A DNA stretch of 64,000 nucleotides from Deferribacter autotrophicus (GTDB lineage Bacteria; Chrysiogenota; Deferribacteres; Deferribacterales; Deferribacteraceae): assembly GCF_008362905.1 (NCBI RefSeq), contig NZ_VFJB01000001.1, positions 186,001 through 250,000 on the forward strand, written 5' to 3'. This document shows, in pieces, positions 14,346 through 62,786 of the stretch. Each line of letters opens with the position of its first letter. Positions within the stretch are counted from its first letter, which is position 1. The notes under the pieces were generated by a model. That model saw only the letters and a list, made by a program, of their open reading frames with translations. It searched no databases and was not told the DNA's origin. A program made the translations under genes and the position numbers.

Positions 14346-14573
14346 AATACACTTTTTCAGCAGGAACTAATTAAAGCTGCAAAACAATATTCCGCTAAAA
14401 AAGGAAAGTCAGTTTCTCGCCTGGTTGCTGATTTTTTTTAAATAATTAAAAATGAAAAATTACAAAAAGATTATGAAATAACTCCTACAGTCCGTTCTTT
14501 AAAGGGTATATTAAAAGAAAAAGAACTATCTGAAAAAGATTATAAAAAATACCTCGAAGATAAATATTTATGA
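14346..14573 (+). pseudogene. Decayed antitoxin (DUF6364-like ribbon-helix-helix type)
   Basis: In one frame the sequence reads ELIKAAKQYSAKKGKSVSRL, then VADFF, a TAA stop at 14439-14441, then TPTVRSLKGILKEKELS and KDYKKYLEDKYL. This resembles small antitoxins paired with PIN toxins. The frame has no start codon and no recognisable N-terminus, and a single A-to-T change of a lysine codon could explain the internal stop. The frame ends with TGA overlapping the toxin's ATG (ATGA), the usual layout of such modules. Confidence 0.75.
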
Positions 14574-14597
14574 AAATATTATTTGATACAAATATTA
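14570..14597 (+). pseudogene. 5' fragment of PIN-domain toxin gene
   Basis: ATG at 14570 begins MKILFDTNI, the first beta strand and first metal-binding aspartate of a PIN-domain ribonuclease. It then runs into foreign sequence and a stop at 14612. The nine bases CAAATATTA at 14589-14597 recur at 16036-16044, where the rest of the gene resumes. Joining the two fragments through one copy restores FDTNIILDVLLD in frame. Confidence 0.9.
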
Positions 14598-14760
14598 AGG
14601 GTATTGCACGGTAATGGATAGCCAACTCCATAATTGTTTGATGAACAATAGATTGCTTCGCTTCGCTCGCAATGACGAAACTACTTGCCGTCATCGTATA
14701 TTGCAAATTATTAAAAGATATTAACGAGCAGTAAAAATTAATTTAATATTATAGAGAGTA

Positions 14761-14898
14761 CCTAATGTGGAGAAGGATATGATTGTCATTGGTCTAAAAA
14801 GACCGTTCGCAATGTTATCCCCACATTAGGCTCCCTTTACTCAGAACAGAACATTAGGCATAAAGCCTGTATTTACGATGATAGAGTAAAAAGGGAGC
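14761..14898 (+). ncRNA. Predicted IS110 bridge RNA (target and donor loops)
   Basis: Two long stem-loops precede the recombinase. Loop 1 is closed by CCTAATGTGG (14761-14770) pairing with 14821-14830. Inside it, GTCATTG (14785-14791) equals the target top strand, and TCGCAATG (14807-14814) is complementary to target CATTGCGA. A small GGTC/GACC hairpin lies between them. Loop 2 is closed by GCTCCCTTTACTC (14830-14842) against 14884-14898. Inside it, ACAGAACAT (14846-14854) equals the element's right end (15947-15955), and TACGATG (14874-14880) is complementary to the left junction CATCGTA (14692-14698). This is the split-guide layout known for bridge RNAs of IS110-family recombinases. The transcript ends are not determined. 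Confidence 0.85.
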
Positions 14899-14927
14899 AA
14901 GCTCAATAAAAAATTTGAGGTGAGTAA

Positions 14928-15938
14928 ATGTATAAGTATCAAAAGGTGGTAGGTATTGATGTATCGAAGTTGAATTTATCCATAAGCGTATATGATGGTA
15001 AGAAGTATAGTTTTTACGAAGTTTCTAATAATACTAACTTATTTAAAAAAGATTTTTTTGACAAAGAGAGATTAGATTTATCAACCACACTTTTCATAAT
15101 GGAAAACACAGGAGTATATCACTTAAAGTTAGCAACCTATTTAGTAAAAGAATTAGGATGTATAGTATCAGTAGTAAATCCGCTTGCAATAAAAAACTTT
15201 ATAGGTATTGATTTAAACAGATTAAAAACAGATAAGGCAGACTCTAAAAAGATAGCAGAGTTTGGTTATATTTATGGTGATAAATACTTATTTAGTCCTA
15301 CAGATGAACTCTCAGAAAAGATAGAATTAACGTTAAACATGATAGATGATTTTTATAATCAAATAAACACGCTAAGTAATCAATTGGAAAGTTTAATGCA
15401 AAGATACTATAAATTTCCTGAAATAATAAAAAGTTACAAAAGCATGATAAAAACATATCAAAGAAAGATTAGAGAAGCGGAGAAGGAACTAGAGAGATTA
15501 ATAAAGAAAAATTTTAAAGTGGAATATGAGCTTTTACGTAGTATTCCAGGTGCTGGATTAAAGTTTTGTTCACTTGTAATAGGTAAACTTAAATGTTTTA
15601 AAAATTTCGATAAGGCTAAGCAAGTAAGTTCATATATTGGGATTTGTCCTAGTCCTTATGAGTCAGGGAGTTCAATTAAAGGCAGAGGTAAAATATCCAA
15701 GAGGGGTAACACGTATATGAGAAAAATATTATTTATGTGTTCATTAAGTGCTTGTAAGCATAACAGGAGCTGTAGGACTTTGTATTATAGGTTGATTGCA
15801 TCTGGGAAACCTAAAAAGCTAGCGTTAATTGCTGTTGCAAATAAATTAATAAGACAAGCTTTTGGGATATTGAAAAGTGGAAAACCTTATGATCCTGATT
15901 ATCATGCAGGATTAACACATAGTGCAAAAAATGCTTGA
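14928..15938 (+). CDS. IS110-family DEDD recombinase/transposase
   Basis: A 336-residue recombinase. The N-terminal RuvC-like DEDD domain shows GIDVSK (first Asp near residue 10), IMENTGVYH (Glu) and LKTDKADSKKIA (paired Asp). A coiled middle section follows. The C-terminal Transposase_20 domain has SIPGAGLKF and the catalytic-serine region ESGSSIKGRGKISKRGN. Length and motifs are complete. GAGGTGAG supports the ATG at 14928. Its position after the predicted bridge RNA fits the IS110 group, whose guide RNA is encoded at the left end. The protein would use that RNA to recombine the element into GTCATTGCGA-type palindromes. Confidence 0.95.
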   Translation: MYKYQKVVGIDVSKLNLSISVYDGKKYSFYEVSNNTNLFKKDFFDKERLDLSTTLFIMENTGVYHLKLATYLVKELGCIVSVVNPLAIKNFIGIDLNRLKTDKADSKKIAEFGYIYGDKYLFSPTDELSEKIELTLNMIDDFYNQINTLSNQLESLMQRYYKFPEIIKSYKSMIKTYQRKIREAEKELERLIKKNFKVEYELLRSIPGAGLKFCSLVIGKLKCFKNFDKAKQVSSYIGICPSPYESGSSIKGRGKISKRGNTYMRKILFMCSLSACKHNRSCRTLYYRLIASGKPKKLALIAVANKLIRQAFGILKSGKPYDPDYHAGLTHSAKNA

Positions 15939-16035
15939 CTTTTAACACAGAACATTGCGAGGAGCATTTGCGACGAAGCAATCTATTGGATATCAATAAG
16001 TTACAGATCTATGATATCTTTTTATGCAATATCCT

Positions 16036-16430
16036 CAAATATTATACTAGATGTTTTATTAGATAGACAACCATTTTCGAAGCCTGCGGCATATTTGATG
16101 TCCAAAGTTGAACGATCCGAACTTCTGGGATATGTTTATGCAACTACCATTACGACAATACATTATCTTATATCGAAAAATCTTGGAGATGCTGCCGCAA
16201 AACAACATATTGGGTCGTTATTGACATTATTTGAAATAGCTCCGGTAACCCGGACAGTTCTTGAAAGTGCTTTATCCAGTAAATTTAAAGATTTCGAAGA
16301 TGCTGTATTACATGAATCTACAATTCATGTAGGAGCGAAATATATTGTAACCCGAAATGTATGTGACTTCAAATGTTCCATGATACCAGTATTTGAGCCA
16401 GTTGAATTAACAAATATAATAGAAAATTAA
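16036..16430 (+). pseudogene. 3' fragment of PIN-domain toxin gene
   Basis: This is the bulk of the PIN ribonuclease interrupted at 14597. It reads NIILDVLLDRQPF, a central hydrophobic region, DFEDAVLHEST with conserved acidic residues, and YIVTRNVCDF near the end. An ATG upstream at 16011 lies in the inserted element and would give a 139-residue product beginning MISFYAISSNIILD. That product lacks the first catalytic Asp of the native FDTN motif, so even if translated it should be inactive. The gap to the 5' fragment is the MITE-2 plus IS110 insertion. Confidence 0.88.
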
Positions 16431-17516: not shown

Positions 17517-17537
17517 AGGAGGGAGTACCCCTCCTTT
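17515..17537. terminator. Bidirectional rho-independent-type hairpin
   Basis: AAAGGAGGG at 17515-17523 pairs with CCCTCCTTT at 17529-17537 around a five-base loop. It sits between the convergent DUF4405 and recO genes and overlaps both stop codons. The A/T ends of the stem give short T-runs in both directions. Confidence 0.8.
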
Positions 17538-36026: not shown

Positions 36027-36256
36027 CATTTAATTTTTTTTATCGAATAAAATTTTATAAATTTTTTGTCCATATTAAATATTATGCACAAATCAATCAT
36101 TTGAAACTTCTAAAATATCTTTCCGTAACAGATATTTTAAATCTATTATGCTGAATTTTTTGCTCATCATAAAATTCATAACCACACTCTTTCACGGATC
36201 TGCCTTCGGCTAAAAATTATATTTTTTTGGATACACTTAAGAAAAGTTATGATTTG
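36027..36256. other. AT-rich spacer without a recognised gene
   Basis: No supported coding frame. It holds only scattered short inverted repeats, such as AAAATATCT and AGATATTTT at about 36112-36132, before the MITE-2 copy starts at 36257. Confidence 0.5.
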
Positions 36257-36458
36257 AGGATGTTGCATAATATAAAAATTGAAAAGCTGCAAAATTTCAA
36301 TTTAATCTGTAACATATTTATAACAAAAAGATTGCTTCGCTTACGCTCGCTGGTGAGGATTCGGCTGTTCTGTCACCATTGAGGAGCGGCAGCGACGAAG
36401 CAATCTCTTATTTACTAAAAAGTTACAAGATTAGTCTTTTGTTATTGTGCAACATCCT
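36257..36458. mobile_element. MITE-2 element (copy 2)
   Basis: The ends AGGATGTTGCA (36257) and TGCAACATCCT (to 36458) are exact inverted repeats. The interior carries AGATTGCTTCGCT on the left and AGCGACGAAGCAATCT on the right, matching copy 1 at 14598-16035 in ends, core and the AGTTACA segment near the right end. A clear 9-bp flanking repeat is not visible; GATTT occurs on both outer sides if one more base (GAGG / CCTC) is counted into each end. The right arm reads CATTGAGGAGCGGCAGCGA, a degenerate form of the sequence hit by the IS110 element in copy 1. Confidence 0.75.
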
Positions 36459-36637
36459 CGATTTCTTATATTTATCTTATTTCATCAAAAAACACTTTAT
36501 ACCTTATGAAACAATTATGGTGCTTTATGCTAATTATTTAATTCTTATTTTCTATAAAGCTAGACTTTTCGGAGCTAGAAGTGCATAGCTTAAAAAGGAG
36601 TTTTAATCTAAGAGGGTAATAAAATGAGAAAAAAAGA

Positions 36638-62528: not shown

Positions 62529-62786
62529 TTATTTTACCTGGAGTCACCCCATTTTTTACAAATAACCCTATTCACACAAAATTGAGGAAATACATTTTTT
62601 GGGTTCAAATGCCCATAAAACCGCCACGGACGGCGGTTTTAGAGGTATTTGCCTCGGAGCTTCTACTGGATGTAGAGCGAGAATGAGAAAAATGTTTTTC
62701 CTCAATTTATTTCAGATTAACTAATTAATAACCATAAAAATATTTCTACTGCTTTTAAAAAAATGGGGTGACGCCAGTTATTTTAC
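62529..62786. mobile_element. MITE-1 element (copy B) with structured core
   Basis: The element 62538-62777 (240 bp) has ends CTGGAGTCACCCCATTTTTT and, inverted from the right, CTGGCGTCACCCCATTTTTT. It is flanked by a perfect 9-bp duplication, TTATTTTAC, at 62529-62537 and 62778-62786. It lies between ferritin and the aroF leader, directly upstream of the aroF promoter region. It has no coding frame. Confidence 0.9.
62578..62708. other. Covarying structured core of MITE-1 copy B
   Basis: P1 pairs 62578-62598 with 62688-62708 (20 of 21). P2 pairs CAAATGCC (62606-62613) with GGTATTTG (62644-62651, one G-T). P3 pairs TAAAACCGCC (62616-62625) with 62632-62641. P4 pairs TCTAC (62662-62666) with GTAGA (62672-62676), loop TGGAT. 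Compared with copy A (37766-37892), P1, P2 and P4 have different bases but still pair, while P3, CCTCGGAGC and GCGAGAATGAG are unchanged. Confidence 0.75.

Follow-up and report, generated by a model that had tools for sequence, protein, structure and literature searches.

A probable bridge-RNA insertion sequence of the IS110 group in Deferribacter autotrophicus, with relatives that may have been retargeted in place

The 64,000-nucleotide stretch of the Deferribacter autotrophicus genome analysed here (the window) contains, at positions 14695-15955, an IS110-group insertion sequence of 1261 bp with a single gene, set between two copies of the duplicated trinucleotide CAT. Judged from its sequence, it is probably a genuine and intact bridge-RNA element that was recently active, and we assign a probability of roughly 0.93 to the reading that it is such an element and moves by bridge-RNA-guided recombination. 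The evidence comes from its boundaries, its guides and their covariation with the sites, empty paralogous sites, catalytic residues and a promoter motif at the circle junction, all of which can be read directly from the DNA.

Three window-type copies, 100% identical, are present in the same genome, on contigs 1, 3 and 9. All are inserted at GTCAT/TGCGAG (the slash marks the junction) at distinct loci, and they match letter for letter from CATCGTATATTG through ACAGAACAT, a span that opens with the CAT at 14692 and closes with the one whose last base is 15955. Beyond these ends they diverge, the common letters being the GT- before and the -TGCGAG after the element that belong to a REP repeat. 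This three-copy comparison confirms the boundaries 14695 and 15955 proposed in an earlier note on this DNA. On the plus strand, the left half of the target, GTCAT (14690-14694, putative core AT at 14693-14694), pairs with the left target guide, and the right half, TGCGAG, lies at 15956-15961; both are the same at all three copies. The left end is a non-coding region (14695-14927), identical in the three copies, that would encode the bridge RNA, while the right end, or left donor, spans 15939-15955 (putative core AT at 15954-15955). Spread by homologous recombination or by duplication of the surrounding repeat, not by transposition, was considered, since the targets lie in abundant repeats able to recombine and some guide-site mismatches in a related genome (G010) look like exchange between copies. 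Yet the unique flanks differ among the copies, identity stops exactly at the element termini and unoccupied repeats exist, which makes this explanation very unlikely.

Insertion into a specific short sequence, without long terminal inverted repeats and with duplication of the core only, places the element in the IS110 family. Following published criteria that separate the IS110 group from IS1111 (PMC11187229), it fits the former: 233 nt of non-coding sequence lie upstream of the recombinase gene and 17 nt downstream, the bottom-strand guide precedes the top-strand guide, and no subterminal inverted repeat pair of 11-13 bp was found among the repeats listed. The gene (14928-15938, plus strand) encodes a recombinase of 336 aa that matches both IS110 Pfam domains, PF01548 (DEDD, RuvC-like) and the C-terminal PF02371 with the catalytic serine, as well as the NCBIfam model NF033542, 'IS110 family RNA-guided transposase'. 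Structure matches include IS621 (8wt6, E 7e-28), whose catalytic residues D11, E60, D102, D105 and S241 align with D11, E59, D102, D105 and S246 (5/5 present), and the ISCro4 recombinase (PDB 9t56, E 1e-26), a distant homologue compared by recombinase alone. A single-sequence scan of GTDB contigs returned a sole relative, from Bacteroidales, whose 26% identity made it of no use. The genome also carries a second, distant IS110-superfamily transposase (399 aa, 27-28% identity) in 8-9 copies on contigs 1, 3, 4 and 9 (e.g. 277599-278741 of contig 1).

The target belongs to a REP-like repeat that often occurs in inverted pairs; its 11-mer, GTCATTGCGAG, was counted 80 times in the own genome and 127 times in a genome of the same genus (G001), while the reversed pattern gave 0 matches in the same counts. 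The earlier description of the target as palindromic does not hold, since the 11-mer is one arm of the abundant inverted pair and itself no palindrome. REP targeting by IS110 elements is already known. Empty sites were sought among paralogous repeats because the intergenic region of G001 could not be aligned: in a search for the orthologous empty site there, only the next gene (from window position 17536) aligned, at ~70%. When the flanks of the contig-3 copy are joined, they restore a repeat that is found empty at locus L013; the two are 83% identical along a 233-bp stretch that spans the junction. Similarly, the site of L042 and the flank of L053 agree at 93% along 89 bp, with no difference at the junction itself. 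Unoccupied paralogous sites, continuous across the junction, are therefore available.

The window element itself lies within a MITE-like repeat of about 180 bp with an inverted REP pair (14597-16036). The family to which this repeat belongs is about 200 bp long, has ends GAGGATRTTGCACAATA and includes further copies at 36256-36459 of the window, at 1261-1461 of L013 and at 1386-1587 of L020. Short duplications flank the copies (AAATATT on both sides of 14597-16036, GATTT around 36256-36459), and in several of them GTCATTGCGAG arms inside the repeat act as targets for IS110 insertion. One gene at this place (14572-16430), which encodes a PIN domain and likely belongs to a toxin-antitoxin pair (PF13470, E 2e-19 for 16011-16427), seems to be interrupted near its start (MKILFDTNI at 14572) by the MITE-like repeat, giving an apparent nested insertion of the IS inside the repeat inside the gene.

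All guide strings that the earlier note had read in the non-coding region are present: GTCATTG at 14785-14791, TCGCAATG at 14807-14814, ACAGAACAT at 14846-14854 and TACGATG at 14874-14880. We assign them, all on the plus strand, to four guides. The left target guide is ATTGTCAT (14782-14789), in which GTCAT matches exactly and the preceding UU can pair or wobble with the T or C that stands just before GTCAT in the majority of the ten sites scored, which are of the window type or from G010. The right target guide, TCGCAATG, is the complement of CATTGCGA, and its final G joins the T after it in a candidate handshake guide. For the donor, the left guide ACAGAACAT is the same string as the right end at 15947-15955, and the right guide, TACGATG, is the complement of CATCGTA, the left junction at 14692-14698. 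A longer left target guide, GTCATTG, was considered and rejected: its final TG belongs to a conserved UGG..CC scaffold hairpin, since a sister family of elements in the same genome keeps TTGG there although its own target has no TG at that place. The left target guide therefore stops at GTCAT, and of the four guides said to match over 7-9 bases, three do so. Exact matches anchored at the junctions (left target 5, right target 8, left donor 9, right donor 7) were compared with 20,000 dinucleotide shuffles of the non-coding region; no shuffle reached the sum 5+8+9+7, the largest being 25. Taken by itself, the left target guide, at 5 nt, falls short of significance in the window element (P 0.12).

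The guides are displayed on a two-loop fold. The upstream non-coding region has an RNA fold z of -7.5 against shuffles, and the predicted bridge RNA (14709-14905, plus strand, its 5' end placed from the -10 box; z = -6.6 for 14709-14910) comprises a target-binding loop 1 (14762-14829) and a donor-binding loop 2 (14830-14898). Both loops are retained in an alignment of seven relatives, in which ten base pairs changed on both sides, although these compensatory pairs represent few events because most separate the window element from the other relatives. The homologue alignment, which would have spoken against the original proposal had the loops not been conserved, thus keeps both of them. The suggested comparison with Rfam bridge-RNA models gave no match to any bridge-RNA family at gathering or permissive thresholds. 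A covariance model of the RNA (R1) matches only upstream of the recombinase, with 13 copies in the own genome, 10 in G010 and 2 in its congener G003; among 60 relatives and the own genome, no other genome has copies. Every match adjoins a full or partial recombinase gene or a contig end, so no stand-alone, trans-acting bridge RNA was found in this set.

We considered that, as in the seekRNA description, short target-loop RNAs could act as guides while the recombinase itself recognizes the ends, loop 2 being no donor guide. Target-only guide RNAs of similar size have been described for the IS110-family element ISEc21 (74 nt; PMC11187229), and with ends that hardly vary, little covariation can be expected from donor pairing. 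Against this, loop 2 matches the two ends beyond chance (P 0.0008 and 0.005), and the two loops form one conserved folded unit. Moreover, the one end base that varies among relatives (ACAGAACAT versus ACGGAACAT, A-to-G) changes in guide and right end together, and the right donor guide of the sister family, although changed, still pairs through G-U. We consider a target-only RNA improbable and retain the two-loop bridge RNA.

CAT is common to target and donor. Aligned by position to IS621, its C is position 7 and its AT positions 8-9, and the core is best read as AT. The earlier note had placed the core within CAT, as AT or CA and not the CT of IS621; the exclusion of CT stands and AT is preferred. 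CA was rejected, as it would break the T at position 9, which is nearly invariant in IS110 relatives and kept in the window element, and would put the cut inside the common CAT. A CT core, characteristic of IS621 and close relatives and not of all bridge-RNA systems, is absent. In the narrow sense, then, the element is no orthologue of IS621; a bridge-RNA system of this kind is still allowed because AT cores support recombination in engineered IS621 (PMC11208160). After the complement of the core, loop 1 carries GU, which fits the donor C7-A6 and misfits the target T6, whereas loop 2 carries GA, which fits the target C7-T6 and misfits the donor A6. These dinucleotides follow the handshake pattern of IS621 and are candidate handshake guides.

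The sister family, 65% identical in DNA, consists of eight identical copies, one that has diverged and one that is partial and lies where a contig ends. Wherever both flanks are known, its copies sit at TTTTTCTCAT/TCTC; the target, TTTTTCTCATTCTC, differs from that of the window type, and loop 1 of the family, ATTTTTCTCATTGG...CCGTTGAGAATG, contains exact guides for its own site. In the diverged copy, one change in the right guide matches its own site, TCTCG. All window-type and all sister copies consequently have flanks that match their own loop 1, the opposite of the outcome that would have spoken against the original proposal. Empty TTTTTCTCATTCTC sites exist, one of them in the window at 62679-62692 (minus strand). 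At that position and at L105, L107 and L108, TTTTTCTCATTCTC starts a dispersed repeat that often ends in a GC-rich hairpin, ACCGCCRTCCRTGGCGGT, and for which Rfam gave no match.

G010 and G003, both from the order of the host, contain further relatives. Those in G010, with a recombinase 58% identical in protein, comprise seven full and three degraded copies. Their right guides are for TGCGA or CTCGA, and their right flanks, including one solo right end, are TGCGA (4), CTCGA (2) and CCCGA (2). In G003 the guides specify CTCGA and TTCGA, and the right ends, from copies cut at contig ends, are CTCGA (3), TTCGA (3) and CCCGA (1); no TGCGA insertion is among those seen there, despite 15 GTCATTGCGAG sites. 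The TTC site, GTCATTTCGAC, occurs once in G010 versus five times in G003, so the lack of TTC insertions in G010 says little. For 15 distinct sites and a total of five guide sets, we compared own with label-shuffled guides (20,000 shuffles), bearing in mind that same-class sites are not fully independent, as some have a repeat family in common. Own guides scored 144/180, the shuffles averaged 111.7 (sd 7.7), and 1/20,000 of them was as good; within G010 alone the association is weak (5/21 labelings as good).

At the level of single copies, L042, L048 and L050, identical throughout, match perfectly on the right side in 3/3. In G010, L034 and L053 have a right guide for TGC at sites CCCGA and CTCGA, and L056 has a guide for CTC at a CCCGA site, a single mismatch. 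The mismatches of L034 and L053, which have three variable positions in common with the CTC lineage, could reflect exchange between copies or trans action. Insertions at CATCCCGAGC are seen at L034 and L056 in G010 and L095 in G003, with no copy seen to carry a CCC right guide; a lost guide allele, a tolerated mismatch or trans action may possibly explain them. Three or four sites excepted, then, the four guides of the two-loop RNA match target and donor and vary with the target across the relatives.

These data also bear on site choice by protein alone, in which the recombinase would read GTCATTGCGAG and the RNA-like matches would be by-products of captured target sequence. Capture of flanking sequence could in principle explain the right target guide. 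However, the two target-strand matches lie on different sides of a conserved loop and run in opposite senses, recombinases ~98% identical in DNA go to CTCGA or to TGCGA sites broadly in step with their guides, and in the sister family guides and target have both changed, leaving this the least probable of the explanations weighed. Under bridge-RNA guidance, ~98%-identical copies in one genome with different right guides (TGCGA or CTCGA), a sister species with CTCGA/TTCGA guides and filled sites that follow the resident guides are somewhat better explained by natural in-place retargeting than otherwise. Natural retargeting was reported earlier between 72%-identical relatives (PMC11187229), and the present copies suggest it at ~98% identity.

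A mechanism can be proposed on the model of IS621 (PMC11208160, PMC11208158). The recombinase would excise the element as a circle, whose closure would place the right end directly ahead of the left end, creating a sigma-70 promoter, the junction reading TTGACT..ACAGAACATCGTATATT. As a motif, the joined ends assemble a sigma-70-like promoter, which reads TTGACT-17-TATATT for both the window element and G010; the sister family gives TTGACA-17-TATATT. In the window element, the -35 box TTGACT (15935-15940, plus strand) overlaps the stop codon, and another part of the junction-spanning motif lies at 14697-14702 (plus strand). The motif is present in 4/4 element types with 17-bp spacing and a score of 10-11; among random 120-mers, 3.9% reach score 10 and 0.2% score 11. 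This promoter would drive a bridge RNA of ~190 nt together with the recombinase mRNA. Loop 1 (left guide AUUGUCAU, right guide UCGCAAUG) would pair with both strands of GTCAT/TGCGAG in REP repeats, and loop 2 (left guide ACAGAACAU, right guide UACGAUG) would do so with ACAGAACAT/CGTA, the sequence at the joined ends. Cutting after the AT core and strand exchange would then fall to a recombinase tetramer through D11, E59, D102, D105 and S246. The exchanged state may be favoured by handshake pairing, GU of loop 1 with donor C7-A6 and GA of loop 2 with target C7-T6.

The element resembles IS621 in its recombinase domains and catalytic residues, upstream non-coding region, overlapping core, REP target, two-loop RNA with the left guide before the right guide in each loop, circle-junction promoter motif and candidate handshake guides at the same positions. 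It differs in its core (CT in IS621, read as AT here), its guides and targets, an RNA outside any Rfam family, a right target guide that pairs at least 5 nt past the core, and a host in an order that appears to include Flexistipes. The presumed membership of the moderately thermophilic Flexistipes sinusarabici in that order fits the AT-rich, possibly thermophilic host imagined from the sequence. With ISEc21 and ISMch6 (IS110 group, seekRNA; PMC11187229) it has in common the bottom-strand guide placed first, the upstream non-coding region and apparent natural retargeting; those relatives are 72% identical in protein, whereas here the copies are ~98% identical and a donor loop is evident.

The mechanism is of the known IS110 bridge-RNA type, and what is new is another element with relatives that look naturally retargeted. 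It would contribute a recombinase of the bridge-RNA type whose core is naturally AT and whose right guide pairs over a longer stretch, from a probably thermophilic lineage, and such a recombinase could be useful for genome engineering. If in-place retargeting is correct, a handful of base changes in loop 1 would give these elements access to a new family of REP repeats, and guide-mismatched sites may reflect bridge RNAs acting in trans on the circles of other copies. The near-identical copies with different guides would thus amount to a small natural experiment on target change and on the trans action of bridge RNAs.
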